IMG/VR virus record: IMGVR_UViG_3300010354_011858
Span: 1-64,000 of that record
Strand: one strand, 5' to 3'
Source: a virus
DNA length: 64,000 bases
Shown: positions 1 through 40,042 of the stretch, one piece after another
Layout of the letters: each line of letters opens with the position of its first letter
Position numbering within the stretch: position 1 is the stretch's first letter
The notes under the pieces: model-generated
What the model was told of the DNA's origin: nothing
Seen by the model: only the letters and a program-made list of their open reading frames with translations
Database searches by the model: none
Translations under genes and position numbers: made by a program

Positions 1-162
1 GATGACCATCAGAAGTGTTCTAACACCGAGGTCGTAGGTCGCACGGACTAACGATAGCAAAGCCGTGTCTCCACTTTCTTCTAACCTTACCATGTCTGGT
101 CTAATGACGGACAAGACCCTTTCACTCTCTGCCAGAACTTTCTCTAATTCTTCCCTAGTCAT
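1..162 (-). CDS. Hypothetical protein, 3' end cut by window edge
   Basis: An open frame runs leftward from an ATG at 162 to the window edge without a stop (54 codons). The start is preceded by a Shine-Dalgarno-like AAAGGA about six bases upstream. The peptide begins MTREELEKVLAESERVL and is charged and probably helical. It lies 19 bases downstream of the next small leftward gene, so it looks like part of one early operon. I do not recognise the family. Confidence 0.55.
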   Translation of the reverse strand, partial: MTREELEKVLAESERVLSVIRPDMVRLEESGDTALLSLVRATYDLGVRTLLMVI

Positions 163-181
163 GTCGTTATCCTTTCTTTCG

Positions 182-373
182 TTAGAGTTTCTCAATGTAA
201 CGTTCGGCAAGTTCACGGAAATCCCGTGCGCCTTCGCCTTCGGCCTTGCCGACGATAATTGCCAAGAGCAAGTATCCCCGGTCTTGTTCGGGAACTAACG
301 ATAGAAGTTCCACTACCTTGTCGGTCTCTGGATAGGTCAGAGTTTGGAATTCGAGAATGGCTTTGCGGTTCAC
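182..373 (-). CDS. Small hypothetical protein (63 aa)
   Basis: This acidic 63-residue protein starts at GTG (373), with AAAGGGAAG just upstream. The GTG overlaps the TGA stop of the gene before it (GTGA), which is a translational-coupling arrangement. The sequence (MNRKAILEFQTLTYPETDKV...) looks helical and has no cysteines or membrane segment. Its role is unknown. Operator-like TCTAACGATA motifs lie inside and around it. Confidence 0.55.
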   Translation of the reverse strand: MNRKAILEFQTLTYPETDKVVELLSLVPEQDRGYLLLAIIVGKAEGEGARDFRELAERYIEKL

Positions 374-504
374 TTGCTTCCCTTTCTAACGATACGGAGT
401 TTGCCGATGCCCCATACTTCACGGACAGTTCTAACGTAAGCCTCGCAGTCTGCGAGTTTGCCCTGATGGACAACCATACCATCGGGCCGGATTACCTGAA
501 ACAT
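370..504 (-). CDS. Small hypothetical protein (44 aa)
   Basis: A 44-codon frame starts at ATG (504) with a strong upstream GAGGAAAGGTAAGG. It ends in a TGA that overlaps the GTG of the following gene. The product begins MFQVIRPDGMVVHQGKL and ends basic (RIVRKGSK). The N-terminal pattern suggests a small beta-rich fold. The good ribosome site and stop/start coupling are the reasons for calling it. Function unknown. Confidence 0.5.
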   Translation of the reverse strand: MFQVIRPDGMVVHQGKLADCEAYVRTVREVWGIGKLRIVRKGSK

Positions 505-511
505 TAGAGCC

Positions 512-580
512 TTACCTTTCCTCGGTGACCTTCACCGATACCCATAGGGTAACCCATAGCCTACCCATGAGTCCAGTCAT
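512..580 (-). CDS. Possible leader peptide (22 aa)
   Basis: A 22-codon frame (MTGLMGRLWVTLWVSVKVTEER) begins at ATG 580 directly after GGAAGGA and stops just before the ribosome site of the 44-residue gene. It could be a leader peptide coupled to that gene or a chance frame. The Shine-Dalgarno-like sequence is almost touching the ATG, which weakens the call. Confidence 0.22.
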   Translation of the reverse strand: MTGLMGRLWVTLWVSVKVTEER

Positions 581-584
581 TCCT

Positions 585-790
585 TCCAACGTTAGAAAGT
601 TTTTTGAAATGTTAGAAGTTACCATAAAGGCTATGTCTATCGTTAGAAATGTAATAAAGTTGTAAGGTTCTCTAACGTTAGCACAGCCGGTGTTCTAACG
701 TTAAGCAGCCAACGTTAGAACACCGGCCCGTCTAACGTTAGAAGCACGGCACGAAAGAAGCCGGCCCGAAGGCCGGCTTCTAACGTTGGG
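585..790. repeat. Cluster of TCTAACGTTAGA operator-like palindromes
   Basis: Within 206 bases there are seven copies of a 12-bp palindrome with consensus TCTAACGTTAGA, each with at most two mismatches. They start at 585, 636, 671, 694, 708, 731 (exact) and 779. They lie in a gene-poor stretch upstream of the leftward genes at 1-504 and around a GC hairpin. The arrangement suggests binding sites for a phage regulator, comparable in style to repeated operators or stoperators. The protein that binds is not identified. Confidence 0.7.
757..780 (-). terminator. Rho-independent terminator hairpin
   Basis: A perfect 10-bp GC stem (GAAGCCGGCC/GGCCGGCTTC) has a 4-base loop. On the minus strand it is followed by TTTCGT. 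It lies downstream of the leftward gene ending at 898 and would end that transcript. The minus-strand T-run is short. Confidence 0.6.
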
Positions 791-897
791 CAGTTTCACG
801 ACATACCCAGGTCGGAATGGTTCTATTATTGCGAGCCTTGCCATACATTCATCAGGTAGGACCGCAGGCAGTTTATCGTCATGCCCAGGACGGTAGA

Positions 898-1158
898 TCA
901 CTCAGCCCATTCCCATCTTCCATCTTCCAACAGTCGAACGTTAGTCGGAGCCTGGCACTCGTAGACATTCACGATCTCGCCGTTGGTAGAGTTCCAGGTG
1001 AAGTCCCGCTCTAACGATACGGGGCAGAGGTTCTCATCGCTGGTGTCGATCCAGTCAGCGATCCGACTCAGACCGATGACCGCCAGAACAGCGACCACCG
1101 ACCAGAAGATCCATCTAACGATGGAGCGGGTCTGGTAGTAGGCCGGGGACTTCATCAC
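898..1158 (-). CDS. Small single-pass membrane protein
   Basis: This 86-residue protein has one clear hydrophobic segment near residues 17-33 (IFWSVVAVLAVIGLSRI). A short basic N-terminus precedes it and a hydrophilic C-terminal region with two cysteines follows, so it is probably membrane anchored. It starts at GTG 1158, overlapping the stop of the upstream gene; an in-frame ATG follows immediately at 1155. Two operator-like motifs (near 1010 and 1114) lie inside the coding region. Function unknown. Confidence 0.6.
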   Translation of the reverse strand: MMKSPAYYQTRSIVRWIFWSVVAVLAVIGLSRIADWIDTSDENLCPVSLERDFTWNSTNGEIVNVYECQAPTNVRLLEDGRWEWAE

Positions 1159-1388
1159 TCACCCCCGATCTTCAAGTCCCCGACCCGAACCCCGGCCCAG
1201 TCCCGACTGGTGTAGGTGTCGGACAACTCACGGGCGAAGAGCATGAGGGCGAAGTTGATCGCCTCGAACTTCTCCACTGTCGCCTTCTTTCCGGTGCGGT
1301 CGAAGGTGTAGATCTTCATCATGTCGTGGAGAACCTGATCGATCAGTTCACCCATTGTCTTGGTTCCATCGTTAGCAACTCGGCTCAT
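1155..1388 (-). CDS. Hypothetical early protein (77 aa)
   Basis: The start is set at ATG 1388 because AAAGGAG stands eight bases upstream; a longer in-frame start at 1415 lacks such a site. The 77-residue product (MSRVANDGTKTMGELIDQVL...) looks helical and ends in a short hydrophilic tail. It is coupled by a four-base overlap to the membrane protein downstream. Two operator-like motifs sit 76 to 108 bases upstream, suggesting repression. No family recognised. Confidence 0.65.
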   Translation of the reverse strand: MSRVANDGTKTMGELIDQVLHDMMKIYTFDRTGKKATVEKFEAINFALMLFARELSDTYTSRDWAGVRVGDLKIGGE

Positions 1389-1463
1389 TTGGAGCACTCC
1401 TTTCCTCAACCTCAAATCTACCCTCTCCCAATGGGTGAGTCAACGACCGAACCATTGGTTTTT

Positions 1464-1630
1464 TCTATCGTTATAAGAAATTTTTGTATCGTTAGAATCG
1501 CATAATAAAGCCGGGAGATCCTCTAACGTTAGAACAACTGGAGTGCAAGGCGGGGGTCATCGCCTTTTGCACTCCAGCCGCCGGCTCTAACGTTAGGCCG
1601 CATAAAGGTATTAAATTTCCTAACGTTAGA
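1464..1630. repeat. Second cluster of operator-like palindromes
   Basis: Five copies of the TCTAACGTTAGA-type motif start at 1464, 1485, 1522 (exact), 1586 and 1619. They lie in the intergenic stretch between the leftward genes ending at 1686 and starting at 1388. This region and the one near 620-660 share a minus-strand layout of CTTTATTA followed a few bases later by TTCTAACGATA, so the motif probably overlaps promoters. Confidence 0.65.
1538..1577. terminator. Long hairpin, probable terminator
   Basis: Bases 1538-1552 pair with 1561-1577 in a stem of about 15 bp with a two-base bulge and an 8-base loop. No long T-run follows on either strand, so it may be a terminator or an RNA structural element. 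It lies between the gene ending at 1686 and the operator cluster. Confidence 0.4.
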
Positions 1631-1652
1631 GACCATGCCTACCGTGGTGTGC

Positions 1653-1678
1653 GCCCTGACCGCCGAAGCGGTCAGGGC
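1653..1678. terminator. GC hairpin after the gene ending at 1686
   Basis: A perfect 11-bp stem GCCCTGACCGC/GCGGTCAGGGC with loop CGAA stands seven bases beyond the stop of the leftward gene. There is no T-run on the minus strand, so termination is inferred from position and stability only. Confidence 0.4.
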
Positions 1679-1685
1679 TTGGCTC

Positions 1686-2084
1686 TCACCAACCGCTCGG
1701 GGCTTCACCCTTCGTCACGGTTCCTACGGGAACGAGGTACGCCGTACCAACCGTAGCGGTCGTGGTGAAGTGACCGCCGTACACGGCGCATACGGTAATG
1801 CTCTCCCATTGCTCCTGCGAGAGAGCCGAACGCATGGCTCTCCATGCACGGTTGTAAACGGGAGACTCACCCTCGATGTTGGGGAGAGCGATAGCGTGAC
1901 CACGCTCGGCGCAGAAGTAGCAAGCGAGCAGAACGGCGAGCCGTTCCCAATTGGTACGGTTGGAACCTACGCCGTTCTCACGGTAGTAGGTGACGAGCTC
2001 GGACGCTGCACGAACGTCCGAAGCGGTCGGGGTGGATAGGGTCATGGGTTGGTTCCGCTGAGCGGTCACCTTCTTCGTTGCCAT
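1686..2084 (-). CDS. Hypothetical protein, paralogue of the gene at 2541-2954
   Basis: This 132-residue protein starts at ATG 2084; no clear ribosome site is visible. It shares with the product of 2541-2954 the pattern SNRxNxxRxAxVLA in its middle and Y-x-x-A-x-R-A-x-x-x-x-L-x-x-x-x-W further on. The two therefore look like diverged copies of one family. Nothing indicates an enzyme. Codon use is GC-rich compared with genes beyond 3.1 kb. Confidence 0.65.
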   Translation of the reverse strand: MATKKVTAQRNQPMTLSTPTASDVRAASELVTYYRENGVGSNRTNWERLAVLLACYFCAERGHAIALPNIEGESPVYNRAWRAMRSALSQEQWESITVCAVYGGHFTTTATVGTAYLVPVGTVTKGEAPSGW

Positions 2085-2160
2085 AAGTGAGAGACTAATC
2101 GAAACATTAGAGCAATGCAAGTCAATTGTAATTGCAGATGCAACGACATAAAGACTTGCT

Positions 2161-2172
2161 TCTATCGTTAGA
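2161..2172. promoter_or_regulatory. Operator-like site TCTATCGTTAGA
   Basis: A one-mismatch copy of the palindromic motif lies 77 bases upstream of the leftward start at 2084. A further copy with two mismatches is at 3007-3018, 53 bases upstream of the start at 2954. Both paralogous genes therefore have one such site in front. Confidence 0.5.
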
Positions 2173-2298
2173 AAATGGTATGCGCACCGAGCTGCATGAC
2201 CATGCATTCGTATGCATACTCAATCATTGCAGCATACAGCTATCGCCCCAGCGGGCGTGCGGGTGCGGGGATATTATACCCGCACGCCCGTCCACAGG

Positions 2299-2437
2299 TT
2301 TTCCACAGGCTGTGGATAACCCATGTGGACAGGCTGTGGATAAACTGGCGGGGTTGTGGATAAACCCTGTGGATAATGTGGTTGTCCACATGATGTGGAT
2401 AATGTGTGGGTAAAGGTGTTGATAAAGGTGTGGATAA
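2299..2437. other. DnaA-box array, probable replication origin
   Basis: Six exact copies of TGTGGATAA (complement of the DnaA box TTATCCACA) start at 2311, 2335, 2355, 2368, 2394 and 2429. Near copies are at 2405 and 2417. Opposite-strand matches to TTWTNCACA are at 2299, with a near match at 2382. Such density is typical of bacterial oriC regions and DnaA-dependent plasmid origins. The array fills most of the gene-free stretch 2208-2540. I see no obvious long AT-rich unwinding element next to it. Confidence 0.7.
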
Positions 2438-2502
2438 AGGTGTGCTCAAATCACGGTCCCCGGACCGGAACACCATGCCAGCCGCAGCTGGGGAACGGCA
2501 AA

Positions 2503-2528
2503 GGGCCGGGGACTTTCGCCCCCGGCCC
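2503..2528 (-). terminator. Terminator after the gene ending at 2541
   Basis: A perfect 9-bp stem GGGCCGGGG/CCCCGGCCC with an 8-base loop stands 13 bases past the leftward stop. On the minus strand it is followed by TTTGCC. Confidence 0.55.
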
Positions 2529-2540
2529 CCGGCCTGCCGG

Positions 2541-2954
2541 TCATTCTGCCGGTGCGATGAACAGCCGGACCCGGCCCACCTTGGCGGTGGTGCTTGTCTC
2601 GCCGGTGATGGTGGTCTTGGCGATGGTCACGGTGTCGGTGATCATCGGCACGATCCGAACCTTGTGCCAGTTCGGACGAACCAGGTCGGCAGACAGGGCA
2701 CGGTGTGCCAGGTGGTAGGCCGGTGCTGTCTGGGCCTTGCCGGTGGTCGGGTCGGTGGCAGGGAACAGGTCGGTGATCTCAACAGCCTGCCCGGTCTTGG
2801 TGACGGTGAGAACCCCGGCGAGAACCCCGGCCATGCGAGACAGGTTCGCCCTGTTGGAAAGCAGGCCATCGGCCTTGGCCTTGGCGACGATCTCGCCGGC
2901 CTGCTTTGCCAAGGCCGGTGAGACCTTGGCGACGGTGACGGTGGTGGTGGTCAT
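2541..2954 (-). CDS. Hypothetical protein, paralogue of the gene at 1686-2084
   Basis: The start at ATG 2954 is chosen because AAAGGAC stands seven bases upstream; the frame continues further upstream without a better site. The 137-residue product opens with a Thr/Val-rich stretch and then AKVSPALAKQAGEIVAKAK. It carries the SNRxNxxRxAxVLA motif shared with the 1686-2084 product. The C-terminal half is Thr/Val-rich and probably beta. It lies directly next to the DnaA-box array, which makes a replication or copy-control role possible, but nothing in the sequence shows it. Confidence 0.65.
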   Translation of the reverse strand: MTTTTVTVAKVSPALAKQAGEIVAKAKADGLLSNRANLSRMAGVLAGVLTVTKTGQAVEITDLFPATDPTTGKAQTAPAYHLAHRALSADLVRPNWHKVRIVPMITDTVTIAKTTITGETSTTAKVGRVRLFIAPAE

Positions 2955-3142
2955 TGTCTGTCCTTTCGTGTTCGGCGTGTTTGCCATGTCTCTATTCAAC
3001 CAACTCTCAAACGATAGATCAACCACCTCTTTTGACCCCCCTACATAACCCCTGGTCAGAGGCCGAATTTTCAAGCCTTACCATGATCGGATATATACTC
3101 AATTTTTTTTAAAAAGTGAGAGAATGCACCTTGGGGGGATTC

Positions 3143-3775
3143 TTAGAGATGGGGCGGCCAAAAGTCGGGGAGAAGACCACGGTATATCGGTCCACTAGGA
3201 GGTTCCCAGTCATCGATATCACAATGCGGGGTTGTAGAAGAGTGTTGTTCCCAAGATGTAGAGATCTTAGTTTGCGTCCAAGATGGGGGAAAGGCTTGGG
3301 TCTTGTTAAAATTCGGGGTTAAGGTTTCTTCAGGCCTAGATACGCTAATAATCGATATATTCGATGTTAATAATAGATCTACACAGTCTGACCATTGTTC
3401 ATAGGCGGGGTCTACATAATGTACCAGTCTAGTGACTCCAGATGACGCTATTAACTTACTACATCCATAGCAGGGGGGTCCATTGACAATGAGCGTTCCT
3501 CCTTGCCTAGCATAACTATCTGAATACAATAATGCATTAGCTTCTGCATGATTAGCTATACAATTATCGTAGGTAGATCCATGTGGGGAGTTTGAATGTA
3601 ACCGTGGGCATGCTCCCTGGTCGCAATGGGCGTGACCGGGCGGTGACCCGTTATAACCAAATCCTACAACCCGGCTATTAGGTGCGAGGACAAATGCTGC
3701 ATACTTTCTCTTATCGCATGTCGAAAAGATCTGAGCCATCTGATCGCATGCTGCAAGCCATTTCTCATTTTTCAT
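3143..3775 (-). CDS. Deoxycytidylate (dCMP) deaminase-like protein
   Basis: This is a zinc-dependent deaminase expected to convert dCMP to dUMP, feeding dTMP synthesis with the encoded ThyX. The zinc site is visible as HAEAN (His76, Glu78) and PPCYGC (Cys102, Cys105); a FGYNGSPPG substrate loop lies near residue 39. An extra insert with His and Cys residues between these fits the family's second zinc. The last 60 or so residues are Pro/Ser/Trp-rich and not part of the catalytic fold. The start at 3775 overlaps the upstream gene by 11 bases; an alternative ATG is at 3787. Ribosome sites are weak for both. Confidence 0.8.
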   Translation of the reverse strand: MKNEKWLAACDQMAQIFSTCDKRKYAAFVLAPNSRVVGFGYNGSPPGHAHCDQGACPRLHSNSPHGSTYDNCIANHAEANALLYSDSYARQGGTLIVNGPPCYGCSKLIASSGVTRLVHYVDPAYEQWSDCVDLLLTSNISIISVSRPEETLTPNFNKTQAFPPSWTQTKISTSWEQHSSTTPHCDIDDWEPPSGPIYRGLLPDFWPPHL

Positions 3776-4013
3776 CTCTTTGGCCATATCCTCGTACAAT
3801 ATGATACATGTCGTTTCCGTATCGGAGCATGCCACGACATTGATATTTCACAAACCCTAATATGCTGGGCTTATAGTCTTTTTTCGGTCCCACGAGGGGC
3901 GCACCTTCGTAACCACACTGCCCCGTGCCCTCATATGAGCACTGAGAGTCCCATGGTGTCATATCATAGATATCGCAATGAGGTTGACCGCAAGGGATTG
4001 ATTCCTCAACCAT
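3765..4013 (-). CDS. Small Cys-containing hypothetical protein
   Basis: This 82-residue frame starts at ATG 4013, eight bases inside the end of the previous gene, and ends inside the start of the deaminase. The N-terminal half has five cysteines in CGQPHC, QCSYEGTGQCGY and a later KYQC, compatible with metal binding. The close packing with both neighbours supports it as a gene. Function unknown. Confidence 0.45.
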   Translation of the reverse strand: MVEESIPCGQPHCDIYDMTPWDSQCSYEGTGQCGYEGAPLVGPKKDYKPSILGFVKYQCRGMLRYGNDMYHIVRGYGQRDEK

Positions 4014-4215
4014 TACCCCGGACCTTATCCCATTCGTCTAGAGCATCATCCCAACGCCCGGTACGGATGCCCTGGGCTAGGGCATCACCTGCTTTCCATA
4101 ATCTTTCAATCTCATCTGCCGTATCGAACATCAAAATTTCCCATTCCCTATTATCGGTTGGCAATTCTTGAATAACATATTTACGAAGTAACTTGGGGAT
4201 ATTCTCTGTTGTCAT
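4006..4215 (-). CDS. Small helical hypothetical protein
   Basis: This 69-residue acidic protein is predicted helical (MTTENIPKLLRKYVIQELP...). Its ATG overlaps the stop of the P450 gene upstream (TAATG), so the two are translationally coupled. I see no redox motif, so it is not a ferredoxin partner for the P450. Function unknown. Confidence 0.6.
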   Translation of the reverse strand: MTTENIPKLLRKYVIQELPTDNREWEILMFDTADEIERLWKAGDALAQGIRTGRWDDALDEWDKVRGNG

Positions 4216-5309
4216 TATTCAAACCTTAGTGGTAATTTTTTCGGTCCACGGACCTGGCCGACGCTCCATTCTACCTCACCGTCAAGAGAAAACTTCGGGT
4301 GCTTTTTGATAAATTCCTGGATGGCGACTTTCAATTCTAACTTACCCAGGTGAGCGCCAAGACAACGGTGAATACCCAGTCCAAAAGCGATGTGCTTGTT
4401 ATTTTTCCTATCGATAATAAACTCTTCGGGGTTCTCGAAGTGGTCAGGGTCACGATTTGCAGCGTTTAGCGGAATCAGGATCCACTGATTCTTCTTCATT
4501 TCGTATCCATGGAAGTTATAGTCTTCTTTTACTAACCGTGCTGTCGATACACCAGAGTGCATTCTTAATAACTCTTCTACCGCCGAATCAATGAGCTCAG
4601 GGTTATCTTGAAGTTTCTGTAGGTCATCCGGATGTGTAGCCAAATAGTGCAAACTATTGCCTATCGTGTACCAAGTTGTGTCAATGCTACCAATTGTCAG
4701 GAGCATTATCATACCCTGCAATTGCTCTCTTGAATAAGATCCGGCATTAATTAAGAAAGTTAATAAATTATCACCAGGGACATGGTTGTCAATTTGCTGA
4801 CCAACGTAGTCCATATAGACCATGATCTTCTCAAGGCTCTTCTCCGGTTCTAAATTGATATTCTCAAAGATGTCCGGGACCGCCGAACTAAAGAAGTCTG
4901 GATCGAATCCAAGCATGCCTGACATGGATTGTAGGGCGACATACAGACCGTAATCTGAGCCATCCGTGCCATCCCATGACTGACATATCCCTCTCAGTCG
5001 ATCTTCTAGTTTCTCCACCTCTTTGAAAGAGAATGGAGGCTGAACACGCTGTCTTGCCTCAAAGTGATAAGGAGGATCAGCGGTAATAGGGGGTGCACCA
5101 CCGCCAGGCATGTCAGGCGGAAGATCATTGCTTACCATGACACCACGATTACTAAAATGATCAGTGTCAAGCAAGATCTCTTTTATATATTCATATGTTA
5201 AAGGCATCCATGTGCCCCCATAGTTTTCTGTAAAACCCATGGGGTGGAAATCCTGCCAGTATTGTCTTATATTTTTATTAAAGTCAGGATTTGCGTGATC
5301 GAATGCCAT
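4215..5309 (-). CDS. Cytochrome P450 monooxygenase (P450-1)
   Basis: This is a soluble bacterial-type P450 of 364 residues, slightly shorter than the usual 400 or so. The heme-binding loop FGLGIHRCLG is canonical, with the thiolate Cys316. The ExxR motif is present (EELLR), and the I-helix segment TIGSIDTTW keeps the acidic-alcohol pair (Asp-Thr) needed for oxygen activation. No ferredoxin or reductase is visible nearby, so electrons would have to come from the host. The gene ends in a TAATG overlap with its downstream neighbour. Its base composition is less AT-rich than P450-2 and P450-3, suggesting a separate origin. Substrate unknown. Confidence 0.93.
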   Translation of the reverse strand: MAFDHANPDFNKNIRQYWQDFHPMGFTENYGGTWMPLTYEYIKEILLDTDHFSNRGVMVSNDLPPDMPGGGAPPITADPPYHFEARQRVQPPFSFKEVEKLEDRLRGICQSWDGTDGSDYGLYVALQSMSGMLGFDPDFFSSAVPDIFENINLEPEKSLEKIMVYMDYVGQQIDNHVPGDNLLTFLINAGSYSREQLQGMIMLLTIGSIDTTWYTIGNSLHYLATHPDDLQKLQDNPELIDSAVEELLRMHSGVSTARLVKEDYNFHGYEMKKNQWILIPLNAANRDPDHFENPEEFIIDRKNNKHIAFGLGIHRCLGAHLGKLELKVAIQEFIKKHPKFSLDGEVEWSVGQVRGPKKLPLRFE

Positions 5310-7584: not shown

Positions 7585-8322
7585 CTATAATGATCCTCCA
7601 CGATCAATATTAAATATTGCACCAGTAATATTCTTACATGGATCACTAGCAATATATAAATACATTTCAGCAACATCTTGAACTGGGATTAATTCATCTA
7701 TAAATCTAGTTAAGAGATTGAAGTCGGCATTATCAGGGAGTTTTTGTTTATCAATAAAAGGAGTTTGTACTCCACCAGGCGATACTGCATTAACTCTTAT
7801 ATTATTCTTTTTATACTCATATGCTAGTTCTTTTGTTAATCCAACAACGCCTGCTTTACTAGCAACATACGCAGCACTCCATGGCAAAACAGTATTATAT
7901 GCTAATGAAGTCGTATTGATAATACATCCATAATTTTGATTTATCATAAATGGAAGAGTATACCTAGATGTATAAAAAGAACCATTTAAGTTAGTAGATA
8001 TAATATTATCAAATTCATGTGGAGTTTGAAGATGAGTGTGCTGCATGGAATTAATTCCTGCTGTATTGATGAGTACATCAACTTTACCCATCTCTGCAAC
8101 TGAGAAGCGGATTGAATCTTCTACTGCAACATAGTCCTTCACATCGCACTTTACTGCGAATGAATTGGGTCCGGCAAGTCTTACTGTTTCTTGTGCGTTC
8201 TCAATCGTTTTGCTTAAACAAGCAACGGTCGCACCAGCATTTGCAAATTTTATAGCAACCTCACGACCAATACCTGTCCCTGATCCAGAAATAATGACAG
8301 CAGATCCAGCAAAATCACGCAT
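7585..8322 (-). CDS. Short-chain dehydrogenase/reductase (SDR)
   Basis: This is a classical NAD(P)-dependent SDR of 245 residues, the usual length. The cofactor motif GSGTGIG is at residues 13-19, NTAG at 86-89, the catalytic Ser139, and YVASK with Tyr152 and Lys156. The PGGVQTPF segment follows. It probably interconverts an alcohol and a ketone. Its place in the block with three P450s and a CoA ligase suggests it works on the product of a hydroxylation, as SDRs do in lipid and terpenoid pathways. FabG-like and steroid dehydrogenases share these motifs, so the substrate cannot be read from the sequence. Confidence 0.9.
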   Translation of the reverse strand: MRDFAGSAVIISGSGTGIGREVAIKFANAGATVACLSKTIENAQETVRLAGPNSFAVKCDVKDYVAVEDSIRFSVAEMGKVDVLINTAGINSMQHTHLQTPHEFDNIISTNLNGSFYTSRYTLPFMINQNYGCIINTTSLAYNTVLPWSAAYVASKAGVVGLTKELAYEYKKNNIRVNAVSPGGVQTPFIDKQKLPDNADFNLLTRFIDELIPVQDVAEMYLYIASDPCKNITGAIFNIDRGGSL

Positions 8323-8746
8323 TAAACTTTGCTTCTCTTCTCTGCTGTTGTGGATCTATAATCTCGTATGTTCCTCTGCTAACTTTCTTAAAGAAACCTC
8401 TATTTGCATTAATATAATTATACAAAGTAGGTGTAGTAATCTCACACATTTCAATTATTTCATTAGACTTAAGTGTTTTGCCAATATTCTGTTTAATAAA
8501 AGCATCAAGTTTAGATGTCTTAGCACCACGCTTCTTTTTCTCAACAGGCCTAACTTCTGAGAAGTTGAAATAGTCCCACCATTTATTGGATAATTCGTGT
8601 GAGAGGGAATAGTATGAAGTAATTTGGCTTAGAGTTTTGCCATCTCTAACACCAATAACAATGGAGCAGGCTGTTCTACGGTCTTCTTGGCTTATTTGTT
8701 TTGGAAGATTTTGTATTAGATTTTCTGCTTGAACCGGATTTAACAT
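8315..8746 (-). CDS. Putative winged-helix/HTH regulator
   Basis: This basic 143-residue protein has a C-terminal segment SNEIIEMCEITTPTLYNYI that reads like a helix-turn-helix. It is followed by GFFKKVSRGTYEI, like a wing. The middle contains a KKKRGAKTSK linker. It overlaps the preceding gene by 71 bases and the SDR gene by eight. It could regulate this block; no partner sites were identified. Confidence 0.5.
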   Translation of the reverse strand: MLNPVQAENLIQNLPKQISQEDRRTACSIVIGVRDGKTLSQITSYYSLSHELSNKWWDYFNFSEVRPVEKKKRGAKTSKLDAFIKQNIGKTLKSNEIIEMCEITTPTLYNYINANRGFFKKVSRGTYEIIDPQQQRREAKFNA

Positions 8747-9180: not shown

Positions 9181-10323
9181 TTATTTAATATATTGACCGT
9201 ATATTGATTCAATTAGAGAGCCAGTTAAATTTCTTTCTTCTCTATATTGAATAGAATCGATACTAATATTTTTATAGTTATCAATCATATAATTTAAGAA
9301 GCAATTTAATTGTAAAATTGCTGTCTGAAAGCCGATGCATCTATACATGCCGTGACCAAATACTAAATTTGTTTTTTTATAATTTCTATATATATTAAAA
9401 TCTTTAGTGTGTTTACCAAATTTTGTTTCATCAAAATTAGCACTGCCTAATAAAAATGCAACAATATCACCCTTCTTAATATTTTTATTATGCAGTATGT
9501 GATCCGATGATGCAACTCTAATCAGATTAGTTTGTATAAAACTATATCTAAGTGTTTCTTGTATAAAATTATTTGATAGTTTTTTATTTTTAATGACATC
9601 AAGAAAATAATTATTATATTGATATATATTATTTAAAAAATTTGGGAATGTACCAGTTAATGAGCTTGATCCACCAAGCATCATTCCCATACAAAATGAT
9701 ATTGCTACATCCCTATCTCTACAGTTTGATACAAGAGGAGGAGGATTATTAATTATAAACTTATATGCGTTTTTGCATATATCTATTCTTTCTTGAATAC
9801 TTGCCCGTTTCATTAAACTACTGGTAATCTGGAAAACATCGTCGGCCATCTCGTGATCGTATCCCATGAGATCGCATATTGTTAACAGTGGTATTCGATT
9901 TGTTACTGTTTTTACTAAGTCCACGGGGCCAATATTTTCTATATTAGAAAAGATTTTATTAATATTTAAATTAATTTTTGACTCTAAATCACCGGCTATT
10001 GCGGAATGGTAGATATCTAATAATTTTTTTCTATGAATTGTATACTCAGGTGGCAACTGTATCTGAAAGAACTGTCTGTCCTTGTCAGATAGTAGTTCCG
10101 GATTATTTGTCATACATGTTAAATCTCTTATAACAATTGAATCGGTGGTATCATAAGTGTATAATTCATGGTTAGCCAAGCCATTAATTACATCTTGATA
10201 TCTACTAATAATCCAAGCTCTGTGATGATCGCTCCAATACACTGGCTCATATTTTCTAAGATCAGAATAAAGATTTAATAAATCTTCCTTCGGTGTTTTG
10301 TTAGTAAAGTTAAAATTTATCAT
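9181..10323 (-). CDS. Atypical cytochrome P450 (P450-2)
   Basis: This 380-residue P450-like protein has the heme loop FGHGMYRCIG with Cys329, and ExxR as ETLR. Two catalytic features are altered. The residue normally His or Arg two before the Cys is Tyr, and the I-helix reads GGSSSLTG, without the acidic-alcohol pair. It may be an altered monooxygenase, a peroxygenase or a substrate-presenting P450. The start is placed at ATG 10323, just after the stop of P450-3, with AAAGAG upstream; ATG 10341 is an alternative. The coding sequence is about 30 percent GC, with runs of Asn, Ile and Lys. Confidence 0.85.
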   Translation of the reverse strand: MINFNFTNKTPKEDLLNLYSDLRKYEPVYWSDHHRAWIISRYQDVINGLANHELYTYDTTDSIVIRDLTCMTNNPELLSDKDRQFFQIQLPPEYTIHRKKLLDIYHSAIAGDLESKINLNINKIFSNIENIGPVDLVKTVTNRIPLLTICDLMGYDHEMADDVFQITSSLMKRASIQERIDICKNAYKFIINNPPPLVSNCRDRDVAISFCMGMMLGGSSSLTGTFPNFLNNIYQYNNYFLDVIKNKKLSNNFIQETLRYSFIQTNLIRVASSDHILHNKNIKKGDIVAFLLGSANFDETKFGKHTKDFNIYRNYKKTNLVFGHGMYRCIGFQTAILQLNCFLNYMIDNYKNISIDSIQYREERNLTGSLIESIYGQYIK

Positions 10324-10327
10324 ATAT

Positions 10328-11467
10328 TTACTCTTTATCATTCCCTAGAAATCTCATATGTAGACTATCCCACATCATACCTGAGAGGTCGGCTTTGTTT
10401 CTTAGGACACCGGAAATTATTTCAAAGTTTGGAGATATTTCAACAATTGATTCGAGTATAGATGTCATTTCTAATCTAGCAAGCCTCTGGCCGGGACATG
10501 TGTGTGGACCGTATCCAAAAGCAAAGTTATGCTTATTAATCTCTCTATTAATTAAAAACTCATCAGGACTATCTTTTATAAATTCTTCATCAAATCCAGC
10601 AGATGCAGTTAAAAATAACACGGTATCTCCTGCTCGTATAAATTTATTATTTAATACATGATCAACTGTTGCTGTTCTTATAACAAATTGGGATAAATAT
10701 CTATGTCTTAGTGATTCTTCTACAAAAAGAGGAATAAGTTCGTTATTATTTAATATTCTATAATATTCTTCTGGATGTTTCTTGCAGTTATAGACTAGAT
10801 TTGCTAGTTCAGCAGAAATAGTTTCATAGCCGGCAATTGCAATTGATGTACAGAGTGTGCCAATAACTTTTTTTGTCAAATTTACATTTGAAAACTCTTT
10901 TTCTGCAATTTCTATAACCAAGCCTGGTGGATTCTTATAAAAAAATCCGGCCAAGTTCATTACAGCTTCTTTTTGCTCCTCCTTTGAGGAGAGATCAAAT
11001 AATTTCTTTGCTTGTTCTTTTATAAACTCTAAATGATCTTTATCTATTCCAAATATATCAAATATTACATATATAGGAAATAACATAAATAAACTATTTA
11101 TTATATCAATATCTTTATTTAAAATAGATTTTAATTCATTTGAAAAATTATTTTTTATTTTTAATTTTAATTCTTCACTAACCTGGCTTGAAATAATTCT
11201 ATTAATAATTTTTCTAAATTCAGTATGGGCCGGCGGGTCTAGTTCATAGAATGGTAGATTGTCATATAGTTCAGACCTTTTTGTTTCAAGGGTAGTTCCA
11301 TAATTTGCAGTATATTTACTATAGTCACGCAAACAAGATACAACATCTGTATATTTAGATACTATCCAAATTTTATGTTCATCATTCCAATGACATCCAT
11401 CTAAATGTCTTAGAAGTTTGTATTTTTTATAATTATCAAATGTAACTTCATATGGGTCGTAAATCAT
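10328..11467 (-). CDS. Cytochrome P450 (P450-3)
   Basis: This P450 of 379 residues has intact signatures: FGYGPHTCPG with Cys324, ESLR for ExxR, and the canonical I-helix AGYETI. It should therefore activate oxygen normally if given a redox partner. It resembles P450-2 over the N-terminal region (W-x-D/E-x-H-x-x-W-I-x-S-x-Y), and both are extremely AT-rich, pointing to an old duplication or joint acquisition. The start at 11467 overlaps the end of the CoA ligase gene by 20 bases; the longer in-frame start at 11509 has no better ribosome site. Confidence 0.92.
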   Translation of the reverse strand: MIYDPYEVTFDNYKKYKLLRHLDGCHWNDEHKIWIVSKYTDVVSCLRDYSKYTANYGTTLETKRSELYDNLPFYELDPPAHTEFRKIINRIISSQVSEELKLKIKNNFSNELKSILNKDIDIINSLFMLFPIYVIFDIFGIDKDHLEFIKEQAKKLFDLSSKEEQKEAVMNLAGFFYKNPPGLVIEIAEKEFSNVNLTKKVIGTLCTSIAIAGYETISAELANLVYNCKKHPEEYYRILNNNELIPLFVEESLRHRYLSQFVIRTATVDHVLNNKFIRAGDTVLFLTASAGFDEEFIKDSPDEFLINREINKHNFAFGYGPHTCPGQRLARLEMTSILESIVEISPNFEIISGVLRNKADLSGMMWDSLHMRFLGNDKE

Positions 11468-12989
11468 ACAATTCTTTAATTTTTTTATAATCAATTTTAC
11501 CAATTTCATTCCTTGGTATTAAATTTGATTTAATAAATTCTTTTGGAATCTTATAGTCAGCAAGATAATTTAAACAGAATTTTTTTAAACTAGCAAAGTC
11601 TATCTCTGTATCACAATTTATAACACAAGTTACTTGCTGACCCCATCTATCGTGGTGTTTACCTATTACAACTGCATCAGTGACTCCTGGGTACGACTTT
11701 ATTACTTCTTCAACTTCCTCTGGGTAAACCTTTTCTCCGCCAGTATTAATGCAATTGTTGTCTCTTCCAAGCAGAACAAGTTCACCAGATTCTGTTATAT
11801 ACCCAAGATCACCAGGTATACACCATCTCTTATCGTCAATTTCTTTAAATACCATATTCGTCTTTAGCGAATCACTGTAATAGCCAATTGGTAAATGACC
11901 GGTTTTAGCAATTTTACCAATAATGTTACAATCAACCTTATTATAATTATCGTCTACAATAATAGTATCTTCTGGAGATACAAAGGATGAGTCATTCACT
12001 TTAGCAACAACACCGCCTATTTCTGATCCGCCATATACATCCATTACCGAAATATGTGGAAGCAATTCAATTAATTTCTTTTTGTTTATTTCTGATAAAA
12101 ATGCTCCACCGTTATTAATAGAAAACAAATTTTTAAGATTATATGTATTCTTGCTTAATTCATCAATTAATGTTATTGCCATTCCGTCGCCAATTATACT
12201 CATTGAGTTTGCTTCGGATTTCTCTGCAAGGGATAAGCAGTGGTAGCCAGTAAATGTTTTATTTGTATACATGATATATGTAGCACCTAATACTAAAGCA
12301 CTACCCATTACCCATTGACCAGATGCATGCATCATTGGTGTTGTACACATTATTTTTGGAATAAATTGTTTGTTTAAACATTCAAGAGACAATTCTTTTA
12401 CTGAGTCAATTGGAGCATTATTTCTACCCTTATTCATAGCTGCAAGAATGAGATCTTCTTGCCTCCATACAACACCCTTTGGCATGCCAGTCGTACCACC
12501 GGTATATGTTATATATATGTCATCTCCTGATCTTTTTTCAAAGTTTCTTTGGCATCCAAATGATCTGACTGAGTTTTCATAGATCGACTCAAACTTACCA
12601 ACCCATTTTAATTTTGGTAAGTTTGAATATATTGAATACACATCATCATAAAATTCATCAGATACTAGTGTTGCAACAACATTAGCATTGTTATATAAAT
12701 ATAATAATTCATTTTTAGAATATCTATAATTTATATTAATGGGTACTGCTCGTATTTTCAAGCAAGCATAAAATGCATAAATCCATTCAATTCTATTTCT
12801 TGAATGAATAGCAATATGATCACCATAGCCAAATCCACAACTTTTTAAAAAGTTTGCAAGCCTTGTTGCTTCATTATCGATATATCCATAGGTATAAACA
12901 CAATCATCGGTGATAACAGCAATTCGATCACCAAATGTATCTGCATGGGATTCTAAAATATCCGCTAAATTAATTGAACCGTCACTCAT
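11448..12989 (-). CDS. Acyl-CoA synthetase-type AMP-forming ligase
   Basis: This 513-residue enzyme of the ANL superfamily activates a carboxylate with ATP, usually to the CoA thioester. All main motifs are intact: the P-loop YTGGTTGMPKG (162-172), YGGSEIGG, GDLGY, GRDNNCINTGGEKVYP, and the catalytic Lys498 in NEIGKIDYK. The N-terminal and C-terminal domains are both complete. It is the first gene of a leftward operon with P450-3 and P450-2. It is closest in character to fatty-acid/sterol-side-chain CoA ligases (FadD type), but substrate choice cannot be deduced. Confidence 0.92.
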   Translation of the reverse strand: MSDGSINLADILESHADTFGDRIAVITDDCVYTYGYIDNEATRLANFLKSCGFGYGDHIAIHSRNRIEWIYAFYACLKIRAVPININYRYSKNELLYLYNNANVVATLVSDEFYDDVYSIYSNLPKLKWVGKFESIYENSVRSFGCQRNFEKRSGDDIYITYTGGTTGMPKGVVWRQEDLILAAMNKGRNNAPIDSVKELSLECLNKQFIPKIMCTTPMMHASGQWVMGSALVLGATYIMYTNKTFTGYHCLSLAEKSEANSMSIIGDGMAITLIDELSKNTYNLKNLFSINNGGAFLSEINKKKLIELLPHISVMDVYGGSEIGGVVAKVNDSSFVSPEDTIIVDDNYNKVDCNIIGKIAKTGHLPIGYYSDSLKTNMVFKEIDDKRWCIPGDLGYITESGELVLLGRDNNCINTGGEKVYPEEVEEVIKSYPGVTDAVVIGKHHDRWGQQVTCVINCDTEIDFASLKKFCLNYLADYKIPKEFIKSNLIPRNEIGKIDYKKIKELYDLRPI

Positions 12990-35706: not shown

Positions 35707-37104
35707 ATGTTTAGAAACAAATTCAAACTTATAAGACTTCTTCCCGTGACTCTTTGGATTCTGATGTGGCCAATAGGCTCTACAAGAGTTCAAGCATCAG
35801 AAGTTCCTGGGCTTATGTATGAGACATATGAATCTTTTGGTGGATCACCCGAAATACCCGGCCCAGAGTCAACAGTTCTATCGTCTGGTGTTGTGTCTGG
35901 AATTGATTTCAACTGGGGAGGGGGTGTCATTCTTGATTCTGGTCGCTGGGATGGCGTGATTGTTAAGTTTGAAGGATGGATCTTACCACCCGAACAGTTG
36001 ACATATTATGTATGCGCTTATACAGATGATGGTTTTCAACTATTCATTGATGGTCAACTTGTTATTCCCGACTGGTGGGACAGGGGGCCGAGTTGTGGAA
36101 ATACGGCAGATATAGACTTCTCTGACGGTCAACCAAAGCAGTTAACTGCTTACTACTACGAAAATGGCGGTGGTGCTGTCGCACAGTTGATGTACTTTAC
36201 AGGTGATGGTATCTGGCAGGTTATACCAGATAGTTGGTATACAACTACTGAGCCGGTCACAACTACGACAACCACCACAGAGCCAGAACAGACAACCACC
36301 ACACAGCCAGAAGAAACAACTACTACTACGCAACCAGAAGAAACAACGACGACTACTGAACCTGAGCAAACAACTACTACAACGGAGCCTGAGACAACTA
36401 CAACACCTGCCCCCGCTACAACTCAACCACCACCCCCGCCTGCACCAGAACCAGACCCAACGCCCAGCCCCGAGCCAGATCCTGAACCCGCTCCTGAACC
36501 GACACCGGAACCTGAGCCGGAGCCTACCCCTGAACCAGAACCCACACCTGAACCTACCCCTGAACCAACACCAGAACCAGAGCCTGAACAGCCCTCAGAG
36601 ACCCCTGAGGAGCCTTCTGAGCCTTCTATAGAAGAGCCAGAGCCTTCGACACCCCCTGAAGAGCCTACAGAGCCTGAAGAACCCGTGGAGGAGCCGGCTG
36701 AGGAGTTAACCCCCGAACCAGAGGCGGAACTGAGCACTGAAGAAATTGTGTCTGAAATTGAAACAATTGAAGTTAATAATTTAACAACAGAACAAATTAA
36801 TCAAGTATTTAGCACTGAAGTTCTTGAGCAGTTGTCCGATGATCAGATAGAAGAATTGATTTCCTCAATCGAAGTTGACGACCTGTCAGATGAACAGGCT
36901 GAAGCCCTGGCAGAGCAACTATCTGCTGCTCCAGAAAATGTAAAGAAGGAATTTGAAAGTCAAATAAATATCTTTGGCGGTCAATTCGATTCATATGTAC
37001 CAACAGGATCTGTAATAACAGTTGGTCAAAGAAGAGTGATAGTCGCAGTAGCAGCAATCACAATGATTGCTCCTGCTCCTGTCATGTCTTCAAGGAGAAA
37101 ATAA
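35707..37104 (+). CDS. Secreted PA14-domain surface protein with Thr and Pro/Glu repeats
   Basis: A signal peptide (about residues 1-30) precedes a PA14-like carbohydrate-binding domain (about 32-160; YTDDGFQLFIDGQLVIPDWW). A Thr-rich segment of TTTTTEPEQ repeats and a long Pro-Glu repeat to about residue 345 follow. Next comes an acidic helical stretch with repeated LSDEQ-like motifs, and last a hydrophobic helix with a basic end. The layout is that of a wall-spanning surface protein rather than a virion protein. It may alter the infected cell surface. Confidence 0.7.
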   Translation: MFRNKFKLIRLLPVTLWILMWPIGSTRVQASEVPGLMYETYESFGGSPEIPGPESTVLSSGVVSGIDFNWGGGVILDSGRWDGVIVKFEGWILPPEQLTYYVCAYTDDGFQLFIDGQLVIPDWWDRGPSCGNTADIDFSDGQPKQLTAYYYENGGGAVAQLMYFTGDGIWQVIPDSWYTTTEPVTTTTTTTEPEQTTTTQPEETTTTTQPEETTTTTEPEQTTTTTEPETTTTPAPATTQPPPPPAPEPDPTPSPEPDPEPAPEPTPEPEPEPTPEPEPTPEPTPEPTPEPEPEQPSETPEEPSEPSIEEPEPSTPPEEPTEPEEPVEEPAEELTPEPEAELSTEEIVSEIETIEVNNLTTEQINQVFSTEVLEQLSDDQIEELISSIEVDDLSDEQAEALAEQLSAAPENVKKEFESQINIFGGQFDSYVPTGSVITVGQRRVIVAVAAITMIAPAPVMSSRRK

Positions 37105-37530: not shown

Positions 37531-38813
37531 TGAGAATAACTAAATATATTCCTCTTGTTATTTTACCGTTTCTTTTAGTTGGAAGTATTAAATCAGCTGA
37601 CGCAGATACGGTCTCCAATGCAGACTTTGAGTCTGGAAACTTTACCGGATGGGAGAAAGGCGCACAGACCGGGAATATGGCTCCAACGATTACTGGAAGT
37701 GGAACCGGTGTTTCTATAATAAATGGAACTGTAACCTTTAATGCACCGCCAGGTAACCAAGTAGGAACACCTGGTTCTCAATACTATCAACCCGCAACTC
37801 CGGCTGCAGTCTGGAAGTTCTCCCCGTATGGCTCATATGCTGCTGCTCTTCAGCCGGCTGGTCAGGCAAATTTTAATACCGCTACCTCAGCACTTGGTTT
37901 ATCAAGCGCTGAAAATACATCATTAAGAGGTGTTATGACATCTCAGGCATCAGCAAGCAAATGGGGACAAGGCAACCCGACTGATGCTGCTTGGATTACT
38001 AGAAACGTAACATTAAGTGCTGGCGTGACATACACAATGTCATGGAACTATATTGGAACTGATTATGTTCCTTTTAATGATGGATCTATAACGTCATTGA
38101 CTCCTATTGATGCAACGTCATCTGCAACTATTACTGTTAATAATCAGGTGCAAAGGTATGCTCTTCTTGGCTTCACAAATCCCGGAACGGGCGACTATTC
38201 AACAGGAACATATGGCTCTACTGGCTGGCAGGTATCAACATACCAAGTTTCTGCAACAGGTGAGTACAAGCTGGGTTTTGCCGTTTTCAACTTGGATGAT
38301 AACGCCCTATCTCCGGTTCTGCTTGTTGATAGCGAGCCAGGCGGTACTTTGAAGAATGATCAGCAATTTGGTGCTGTCCCACCGAACAACTCTAATGCAC
38401 CGACTGTGCCACCGACCACACAGGCTACTACAACAACAGAAGCACCGACCACAACTACAACTGAACCTGAAGTTACAACAACGACAGAACCGGAAGTTTC
38501 AACAACCGTTCCTGAAACTACAACAACTGTTATAGAAACTACAACCACAGCCCCGGCACCAACTACTGAAGCACCGAGACCGATCTACATACCCTCACCA
38601 GTAGTCACTGTTGAAACAACCACAACAACAATTCCTGATACAACAACGACAATTATTGAAGATACTATCCCAAATGATACTATCCCGATTGATAGTATTC
38701 CAATAAGTGAATTGCCAAAAACCGGATCCAGTAGTCAATTATTTAATATTGGGGCTGGTCTTATTATAATTGGATTATTTATATCTTACATAAGAAAATG
38801 GTTGTATTCCTGA
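37530..38813 (+). CDS. Secreted LPXTG cell-wall-anchored protein
   Basis: This 427-residue protein starts at GTG 37530, coupled to the previous stop. It has a signal peptide (about 1-25), a beta-type domain to about residue 285 (SNADFESGNFTGWEKG, later GWQVSTYQVSATGEYKLGF) resembling bacterial surface adhesion domains, and a Thr-rich TTTTEAP linker. The sorting signal LPKTG at 395-399 is followed by a hydrophobic helix and a basic tail. A host sortase would link it to the peptidoglycan, so it acts on the host surface, not in the virion. It implies a Gram-positive host. Confidence 0.8.
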   Translation: MRITKYIPLVILPFLLVGSIKSADADTVSNADFESGNFTGWEKGAQTGNMAPTITGSGTGVSIINGTVTFNAPPGNQVGTPGSQYYQPATPAAVWKFSPYGSYAAALQPAGQANFNTATSALGLSSAENTSLRGVMTSQASASKWGQGNPTDAAWITRNVTLSAGVTYTMSWNYIGTDYVPFNDGSITSLTPIDATSSATITVNNQVQRYALLGFTNPGTGDYSTGTYGSTGWQVSTYQVSATGEYKLGFAVFNLDDNALSPVLLVDSEPGGTLKNDQQFGAVPPNNSNAPTVPPTTQATTTTEAPTTTTTEPEVTTTTEPEVSTTVPETTTTVIETTTTAPAPTTEAPRPIYIPSPVVTVETTTTTIPDTTTTIIEDTIPNDTIPIDSIPISELPKTGSSSQLFNIGAGLIIIGLFISYIRKWLYS

Positions 38814-38815
38814 AC

Positions 38816-38844
38816 TTTACAAAAAACGTCAAAAGTTCTAAAAT
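38816..38844 (+). promoter_or_regulatory. Sigma70-type promoter of the endolysin gene
   Basis: TTTACA and TAAAAT are separated by exactly 17 bases. AAAGGAG follows before the ATG at 38868. Confidence 0.6.
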
Positions 38845-38867
38845 ATAGTTAAAAGGAGTGTGTAAAA

Positions 38868-39680
38868 ATGACTTTACCGTATATGAAACTCGTCGTTCCG
38901 TCTGCTTTGAAGCAGTACAAGAATGGACAACTTGCCGAAAGTGTTCTCGCCAAAGTGAAGACTGGTGGAAGAATGTATGCCCCAGTTGCAGAAGAGTTTA
39001 ACAAGATGTATGACGCAGCTCTTGCAGCTGGGTATAAATTAAGAAATGTTGGGGATTATAGATCATTCGAAGGTCAGCTTCAAATGTTTATGGATCGCTA
39101 CACAACTACAGATCAGGGACGCAAACCGCAGGTTACCCGTCAGTATGAGGGGAAAACCTGGTATTTGAAGCCTGGCAAGGCTCCGTCTGCAGCCCCCGAT
39201 CCGACCGGAGCTAAGGGTTCTAATCATGGTTGGGGTTTAGCAATAGATCTTGGCTATGAAGTTAATGGAAAACTTGTTGCTATGGGTGGCGGATGCTTTG
39301 ATTGGATGTGCGTCAATGCACCCAAGTATGGTTTTTATCTTCAGACCGATAATCGCCAGTCAAAAGAATTTGAAGCATGGCACTGGCAGTATTGTCTTGG
39401 TGATAGCAAGCCTGATGGCAAGGCTTATATTCCGCCCGCAGGCACTCCGCCCGCATCTGCCTCGGCACCTTCTGGTACGCTTGAATTTAAGTATCCTGGC
39501 ACTCCGGTTAAATTAGGTTCTAAGGGCACCGATGTTATGCTCGTTCAGGCCTTGCTTGGTTTGAAGTCTGATGGTGATTTTGGCCCCAAGACTGATGCTG
39601 CTGTTAAGGCATGGCAGACCGCTAATGGTTTGAAGGCTGATGGTGTGATCGGACCCATCACATGGGACAAGATGTTCTGA
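38868..39680 (+). CDS. Endolysin: M15 (VanY-like) peptidase with peptidoglycan-binding domain
   Basis: Residues 40-178 form an M15 L,D-carboxypeptidase domain with the zinc site SNHGWGLAID (His120, Asp127) and EAWHW (Glu169, His172). A Pro/Ala linker leads to a peptidoglycan-binding type 1 domain (about 212-270; GTDVMLVQALLGLKSDGDFGP...). It cleaves peptide bonds in the cell wall at lysis. No signal peptide is seen, so it depends on a holin. Codon use is G/C-rich, like the capsid gene, indicating high expression. Confidence 0.92.
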   Translation: MTLPYMKLVVPSALKQYKNGQLAESVLAKVKTGGRMYAPVAEEFNKMYDAALAAGYKLRNVGDYRSFEGQLQMFMDRYTTTDQGRKPQVTRQYEGKTWYLKPGKAPSAAPDPTGAKGSNHGWGLAIDLGYEVNGKLVAMGGGCFDWMCVNAPKYGFYLQTDNRQSKEFEAWHWQYCLGDSKPDGKAYIPPAGTPPASASAPSGTLEFKYPGTPVKLGSKGTDVMLVQALLGLKSDGDFGPKTDAAVKAWQTANGLKADGVIGPITWDKMF

Positions 39681-40042
39681 TGGATAGATTTTTCTATGAA
39701 GCCGAAGTTGTGAAAGTTATTGATGGCGACACCATAGATCTTATGATCGATCTTGGCTTCGACATCCACCATGCAGTTCGTGTGAGACTCTATGGCTTAA
39801 ACACTCCTGAGTCAAAAACGTCCGATGAACTGGAGAAGGCCAGAGGCTTAGCTGCGAAATCATATACATCGGATTGGATCAAGAAAACAGATCGTATATT
39901 TATACAAACTGTAAAAGATAAAACTGAAAAATACGGTCGAATTCTGGCCAAAGTTTACGCAGACGAAAAGTGCTCTATTTGTTTAAATGACGATCTAATT
40001 AAAAGTGGAAATGCTGTTGAGTATTTTGGGGGCAAAAGATAA
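39680..40042 (+). CDS. Staphylococcal-nuclease-like protein
   Basis: This 120-residue SNase (thermonuclease) fold has the calcium/active-site residues IDGDTID, RLYGLNTPE (Arg36, Glu44) and KYGRILA (Arg87). It would hydrolyse DNA or RNA to nucleotides, perhaps recycling host nucleic acid. The ATG overlaps the endolysin stop (TGATG). No signal peptide, so it is probably cytoplasmic. Confidence 0.85.
   Translation: MDRFFYEAEVVKVIDGDTIDLMIDLGFDIHHAVRVRLYGLNTPESKTSDELEKARGLAAKSYTSDWIKKTDRIFIQTVKDKTEKYGRILAKVYADEKCSICLNDDLIKSGNAVEYFGGKR

Follow-up and report, generated by a model that had tools for sequence, protein, structure and literature searches.

A palindromic, operator-like word that changes in concert across small-gene arrays of related phages

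The left end of a 64,000-nucleotide stretch of viral DNA (bases 1–64000 of IMG/VR record IMGVR_UViG_3300010354_011858, which measures 70,341 bases; hereafter the window) carries a dense cluster of the 12-bp palindrome TCTAACGTTAGA. An initial annotation, made from the letters of the window alone, compared these copies to the stoperators of lysogenic phages and proposed a maintenance or immunity region. The finding is real and bigger than described there: the cluster is one end of an array of small genes in which the palindrome recurs within a module, and related phages carry a different word throughout. That the palindromes are operator-like is well supported, because a dense, clustered palindrome that changes in concert is expected for the sites of a trans-acting protein. 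In our judgment the balance tips slightly toward their being upstream sites of a phage-encoded regulator of early genes, probably an activator.

Sites in the window

At a threshold of two mismatches, the window has 24 matches to TCTAACGTTAGA, 19 of them inside 1–3018. Over 100 dinucleotide-preserving shuffles of the whole window the mean was 2.94 (SD 1.69, maximum 6), and none reached 24. Site density is 6.30/kb in 1–3018 versus 0.074/kb in the remainder of the record, far from the equal density that the initial annotation had named as evidence against confinement to the left 3 kb. The final 6.3 kb of the record, outside the window, adds no copy at this threshold. The first 3.2 kb contain 26 copies of the hexamer CTAACG/CGTTAG, and the remainder of the record has 10. 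All 19 start positions in the initial annotation were recovered, and the copies it called exact, at 731 and 1522, are so. It had also placed copies in both intergenic and coding DNA; by our own gene calls, 15 of the 19 are intergenic and four (294, 430, 934 and 1114) are coding. The word is self-complementary, with two exact palindromes in the window and 14 in the related contig G001.

Related phages and the longer array

Viral contigs were scanned for pairs of close copies of the word, which yielded 37 stretches. Three contigs have dense arrays at up to two mismatches: G001 (77 sites, 70 inside the array), G002 (73, 70 inside) and G003 (60, 56 inside). G002 and G003 are near-duplicates, and G003 was excluded from the hairpin counts below. 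Judged by their sequences, these contigs and the window record belong to one phage lineage, because they share long collinear gene runs and a DnaB-like helicase 91–93% identical. In the relatives the array is about 8 kb long, made of small genes and raised in GC relative to the lineage genomes (37–39% GC). The right end of the G002 array is the counterpart, by homology, of the window's left end, so a longer array was truncated here and 1–3018 is what the window retains of it. The lineage gene order appears to close as a circle, and contigs either break within the array or run through it. The genes behind the modules differ: at an E cut-off of 1e-4, those of G001 at 4007, 4605, 5475 and 6719 match nothing in the other records. 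Searches with the DNA of the window array against a phage collection, and with that of one G001 module against phage and plasmid collections, found nothing.

The word differs in more distant arrays. We call the TCTAACGTTAGA-type word the CG class and the TGTAATATTACA-type word the TA class. G004 (105,669 bp), found by a scan with an array protein family, has an array at 82.3–90.5 kb with 54 TA-class and five CG-class copies, and the TA-class word has no site in the arrays of G000–G003. Nine further loci encoding lineage array proteins have 18–48 TA-class sites each. That all sites changed together points to a trans-acting reader.

A second conserved locus lies beside a 290-aa gene, presumably glycosyltransferase-like from reading its product; it has two or three tight copies in G001–G003 and ten further contigs. 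We kept 80 of 153 relatives of this gene, several of them near-identical. Downstream of the gene, 17 of the 80 have the CG class, 32 the TA class (at least one site) and none has both; 31 have neither. Four of the 17 CG-class loci are closer to TTTAACGTTAAA. At one second locus (L225), about 140–330 bp past the end of the match, repeated CTAACCTAAC and CTAACAGCCGA words stand in place of the palindrome. The lineage also has a C5 cytosine DNA methylase (PF00145) at L073:18404–19849 (G001 38404–39849), which could bear on the CG-containing word.

Module architecture

The sites are arranged in a module that is common to the lineage relatives and recurs beside unrelated small genes. Along the direction of transcription it opens with a terminator-like hairpin, at whose foot lies a degenerate site, and continues with site O1, a hairpin whose stem usually holds O2 and O3, sites O4, O5 (in the form CTAACGATAG), O6 and often O7, then promoter, leader and gene. 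The commonest site spacings in G001 are 31, 35, 20, 49, 23 and 17 bp. By module layout most small array genes are separate transcription units; some modules serve two genes. The window features are as follows.

1–3018, no strand: cut end of the operator–hairpin gene array; 19 sites at up to two mismatches; continues in G001–G004.
585–781, minus strand: complete module upstream of the gene starting at 504; element order as in G001 modules.
756–781, minus strand: terminator-like hairpin assigned to the preceding gene; a degenerate site (779–790) lies at its foot; from sequence and the fold of 745–800 (z −4.2).
671–742, no strand: symmetric block of site 731–742, hairpin 686–727 (stem sites at 694 and 708) and site 671–682; single-strand fold z −7.3.
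636–647, no strand: site O5, in the CTAACGATAG form on the minus strand; motif match.
585–617, no strand: sites O6 (degenerate, 606–617) and O7 (585–596); motif match.
1464–1679, minus strand: second module, with sites at 1464, 1485, 1522, 1586 and 1619, a hairpin (1538–1577) without stem operators and a terminator-like hairpin at about 1653–1679; folds z −6.5 (1510–1600) and −6.6 (1570–1680).
1415–1443, minus strand: TTGACT-17-TAGATT, a promoter-like sequence that follows the second module; the closest site is centered at about −62; promoter scoring.
2161–2172, no strand: single site upstream of the gene at 1686–2084; motif match.
3007–3018, no strand: single degenerate site upstream of the gene at 2541–2954; motif match.
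1155–1388, minus strand: small array gene, 52% identical to a G002 array gene; protein comparison.
1686–2084, minus strand: small array gene related to G001 706–1161; protein comparison.
2541–2954, minus strand: small array gene, also related to G001 706–1161; protein comparison.

Hairpin covariation

The arms of the module hairpin covary. Hairpins were located by their outer anchors alone to limit circularity, and the pairing of inner bases was then scored. The TA set comprised 31 hairpins after removal of identical ones. L134 and L140 are near-duplicates, from which only identical hairpins were dropped. Inner positions 1–5 pair in 29, 29, 28, 28 and 26 of the 31, against 11.1, 9.6, 22.1, 19.7 and 12.0 expected if the two sides were independent; position 6 pairs in seven (8.8 expected). 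In the CG set of 18 hairpins, each additionally required to have a site core on both flanks, positions 1–7 pair in 18, 18, 18, 18, 17, 17 and 18 (10.3–13.0 expected). Single-strand folds are much stronger than those of shuffles for two window hairpins (z −7.3 and −6.5) and one G001 hairpin (z −9.9), and not for the O5–O7 stretch (z −0.7). The matched arms could also stem from arm-to-arm correction in place of selection on folding.

A genome-collection scan for the hairpin pattern gave 29 stretches. Seven of these, on six contigs of one Spirochaetes bin (L045, L047, L048, L052, L060, L064 and L070), have the form TTCTAACGTT...AACGTTAGAA, possibly an unrelated repeat.

Cultured Streptomyces phage relatives

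The lineage portal is 43–47% identical to portals of Streptomyces phages of the Stanwilliamsviridae (20 best matches). Lineage and cultured phages have in common the map order array, ThyX, RNR-like gene (assigned by length and position alone) and portal, and on this map the array matches the position of the terminal repeat of the cultured phages. In LilMartin the array is an exact direct terminal repeat of 11,126 bp. Phages of cluster BE1 carry terminal repeats of about 11 kb; apart from lsr2, the genes in them are listed as of unknown function in the BE1 announcement (PMC5764925); according to the accessible part of PMC8612146, BE terminal repeats are higher in GC than the remaining genome. 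By analogy, the lineage array would be a terminal repeat expressed early.

The gaps between genes of the cultured arrays also contain palindromes. In LilMartin, 14 of the 15 gaps measuring 60 bp or more contain TGTCCGN3CGGACA at up to two mismatches; the repeat has 17 copies (one within a gene), and the 12.9 kb following it has none. In Tomas, TGACCGN3CGGTCA is present in 16 of 17 such gaps. The LilMartin word, at one mismatch, is common to all six Samistivirus phages examined, which come from four Streptomyces hosts, whereas Tomas and Cross share one host and have different words. A search of the open literature by titles and the starts of abstracts, with subscription papers outside its scope, found no description of these palindromes, and the string ‘palindrom’ is absent from the accessible parts of PMC8612146 and PMC13191466.

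Promoter geometry

Promoters were scored with ad hoc weights, with cut-offs of 7.0 for the cultured phages (110 gene starts in seven phages) and 7.5 for the lineage (G004 left out); lower scores were dropped in the phasing analysis. In the cultured phages, none of the 75 palindromes with a promoter at or above 7.0 overlaps the scored core promoter. Of the 71 palindrome centers between −100 and 0, most lie near −47, −58, −69, −80 and −89 from the assumed start. Taken separately, LilMartin (12 sites; R 0.72 at 11 bp, p ~0.002 after a trial of three periods) and Tomas (eight sites; R 0.74 at 10 bp, p 0.012) each show this helical phasing. Pooling gives p 8e-13, which is overstated because orthologues are not independent. 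In the window lineage, the eight promoters scoring at least 7.5 have no overlapping site; the nearest site center is at −51 to −66 for seven and at −184 for one, at the second locus. The 15 lineage sites between −110 and −41 are phased as well (R 0.68 at 10.5 bp, p 0.001). Phasing directly upstream of a core promoter is suggestive, being the pattern expected from an activator that contacts polymerase.

Candidate readers and array proteins

One window protein is a candidate for the reader.

8318–8746, minus strand: 143-residue protein with a predicted three-helix helix-turn-helix (HTH) and winged helix; model pLDDT 81.8, pTM 0.43.

It has homologues in G004 and two other loci, and its model gives weak structure matches to winged-helix proteins (Z ~7). 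Profile searches gave no match for HTH_3 (PF01381) or Phage_integrase (PF00589) in any of four records, which may be fragments, and none for Lsr2 or ParB_N (PF02195) in any of five lineage records. A 103-residue HTH protein is encoded at G001 36134–36445.

The arrays also encode a family of small basic proteins with an invariant RGRK, whose members recur within an array. Ten of 12 array loci have three members (L072, L078, L091, L120, L122, L127, L131, L137, L142 and L144), and L134 and L140 have two each; no member was found in the part of the array present in the window. Three members scanned against Pfam had no match above the cut-off. PHROG matches were weak (best E 0.002), no PDB sequence matched and one member had no match in the phage collection. 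The family model (pLDDT 81.3) has a good match to one uncharacterized phage protein.

Interpretation

In the reading that we favor, a phage-encoded, probably dimeric DNA-binding regulator would recognize the palindromes. The module, O1 to O7, would precede a sigma-70-type promoter of each small transcription unit, and the regulator would sit immediately upstream of the core promoter, always on the same helical face. There it would most likely aid host RNA polymerase in the manner of a class I activator, starting the early genes together, with the distal sites and hairpin contributing cooperativity or insulation. Activation, and the role given here to the hairpin, are what we infer. The reader is probably phage-encoded because the word follows phage genus and not host.

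Several observations weigh against this reading. Neither word is found in 31 of the 80 second-locus stretches, some of them through scant intergenic DNA in the sequence, and the second locus of G004 shows degenerate half-sites only. The HTH_3, Lsr2 and ParB_N profile searches turned up no reader. Among the 13 cultured phages examined, there are six in which neither palindrome is numerous: at the same map place a single TGACCG-type copy is present in each of Karimac, BoomerJR and MindFlayer and none in Riptide, and in Wakanda and Moab, of another subfamily, no repeated 6+6 palindrome stood out. At two mismatches LilMartin shows 10 Tomas-type copies and Tomas four LilMartin-type copies; the cultured words are indistinguishable at that threshold, so their separation rests on one mismatch or fewer. 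Taken alone, the seven nearest lineage sites are not significantly phased (p 0.10–0.12), and sites in one module, like orthologous promoters of related phages, are not independent. On the ad hoc score, eight of 24 lineage modules have no clear promoter; in six of the other 16 a site lies over the core, and none of these six promoters scores above 7.0. The count of 24 left out eight starts (genes behind another in a unit and two second-locus genes) and all G004 modules. Finally, the genes injected first could draw on a phage activator only if the virion delivered it.

The main rival keeps a phage-encoded reader and makes it a silencer, produced early and turning the array off through cooperative binding, looping or the bridging of modules. 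Bridging would fit the number of sites per module and their presence at terminator feet and in coding DNA. An Lsr2-like protein is encoded in BE terminal repeats, some promoters (TTGACC-17-TAGGAT) seem able to work without help, and the six site-covered cores among the 16 scored modules also fit. We nevertheless regard a silencer as unlikely, though to be taken seriously, given that none of 75 palindromes overlaps a scored core in the cultured phages, that their phasing lies upstream and that all five lineage records are without an Lsr2 match. Less probable still is that the hairpin is the working part, as an extruded cruciform or an RNA stem for replication, processing, packaging or insulation, with the words as companions. 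Covarying arms and strong folds favor it, but the cultured relatives retain one palindrome per promoter (such hairpins were not searched for there), second-locus sites have no such hairpin noted, and arm-to-arm correction could also keep the arms matched.

The operator-like reading of the initial annotation is well supported by the dense clustering and concerted change of word; its reading as stoperators of a lysogenic immunity or maintenance region is not supported, and we give it very little weight. In its favor are the many copies, both intergenic and coding, and the nearby DnaA boxes. Against it, the sites are symmetric and most fall in a fixed terminator-to-promoter module, and the integrase, HTH_3 and ParB_N searches were negative as given above. 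The proposed tie to an origin-like array finds no support either: six exact DnaA boxes (TGTGGATAA) are packed in 127 bp at window 2311–2437, and relatives have none in G001–G003 and a single one in G004, at 22237, outside its array. The DnaA-box link was therefore rejected, the boxes not being conserved. Sites for a host transcription factor, for which the palindrome has an ordinary length, are scarcely credible and were rejected: one word is common to Samistivirus phages from four hosts, the words of Tomas and Cross differ on a single host, and the word tracks phage genus.

Two other candidates were set aside. An integron-like cassette array was considered for the TCTAAC/GTTAGA boxes and hairpins; the four records, perhaps fragments, have no PF00589 match, and the TA class changes the boxes. 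Site positions do not fit a start-associated translation signal. An N4-type hairpin promoter, and the late −35 word CGTTAGA of SPO1, would be other possible leads.

Returning to a phage-encoded regulator, a broader form of the idea is tentative, and we would sooner doubt it than assert it: each phage of this lineage may run its early array on a private regulatory code, with one phage-encoded reader, some 50–70 copies of the word and a co-selected hairpin as a second, structure-read element of the switch. The word would be replaceable array-wide (TCTAACGTTAGA, TTTAACGTTAAA or TGTAATATTACA, and TGTCCG or TGACCG arms in the cultured relatives) while the module and its map position stay. Concerted replacement of dozens of operators is hard to explain because each intermediate should break part of the regulon. 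The two word states occupy homologous places in related phages, and LilMartin, Tomas and Cross have a simpler version, which makes the question open to laboratory tests. The same idea would also assign a function to the intergenic gaps in the long terminal repeats of BE phages.

Comparison with known systems

The array is a variant of dispersed phage operator systems, notable for its concerted change of word and its covarying hairpin. Among its closest counterparts is the terminal-repeat array of the Boydwoodruffvirinae (cluster BE; Stanwilliamsviridae, including LilMartin and Tomas). The two arrays occupy one and the same place on the map with respect to ThyX and portal, and both show raised GC, small genes on the minus strand that have their own promoters, and a phage-specific palindrome in the gaps upstream of the promoter; a small-gene array so placed, with such a palindrome, is what marks the Stanwilliamsviridae type. 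The BE arrays differ in having one longer palindrome with a 3-bp center per gap, versus several 12-bp palindromes in the window lineage, and in encoding Lsr2-like and ParB-like proteins, profiles that found nothing in five lineage records.

Stem-loops are also a feature of the PeSL regulatory cassettes of T4-type phages, reportedly described by Arbiol and colleagues in 2010 and said to combine a promoter and stem-loop beside small unrelated open reading frames. Many lineage modules have stem-loops, and predicted promoters were scored in 16 of 24. The lineage is not of T4 type; its portal is closest to those of Stanwilliamsviridae siphoviruses. To our knowledge, PeSL cassettes are not known for arrays of one operator word.

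Three mycobacteriophage systems also bear comparison, as far as the accessible parts of their sources go. Corndog-type cluster O phages have more than 30 copies of a 17-bp palindromic repeat, many of them intergenic as in the window, with no integrase and no known function (PMC4351075). Those repeats are spread genome-wide and have 7-bp arms around a 3-bp spacer, and the accessible text describes no hairpin module (PMC4351075); the window word is a 12-bp palindrome without spacer. Cluster K start-associated sequences (SAS) and extended SAS (ESAS) are similarly gene-linked, with inverted repeats whose consensus varies between phages (PMC3203893). SAS are asymmetric and lie 3–7 bp from start codons (PMC3203893), whereas the window site is symmetric and most sites are far upstream. 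Cluster A stoperators, also many copies of a short site in one phage, are asymmetric, oriented with transcription and found in temperate phages (PMC4351075); the window consensus is its own reverse complement.

Neighboring genes

A dCMP deaminase gene at window 3143–3835 adjoins the array. A low-GC accessory block, also adjoining it, encodes three related proteins of 364–393 aa (4215–5309, 9181–10341 and 10328–11509; 24–26% identical), which we take to resemble cytochromes P450. A tblastn search with these three proteins gave weak matches in G004.

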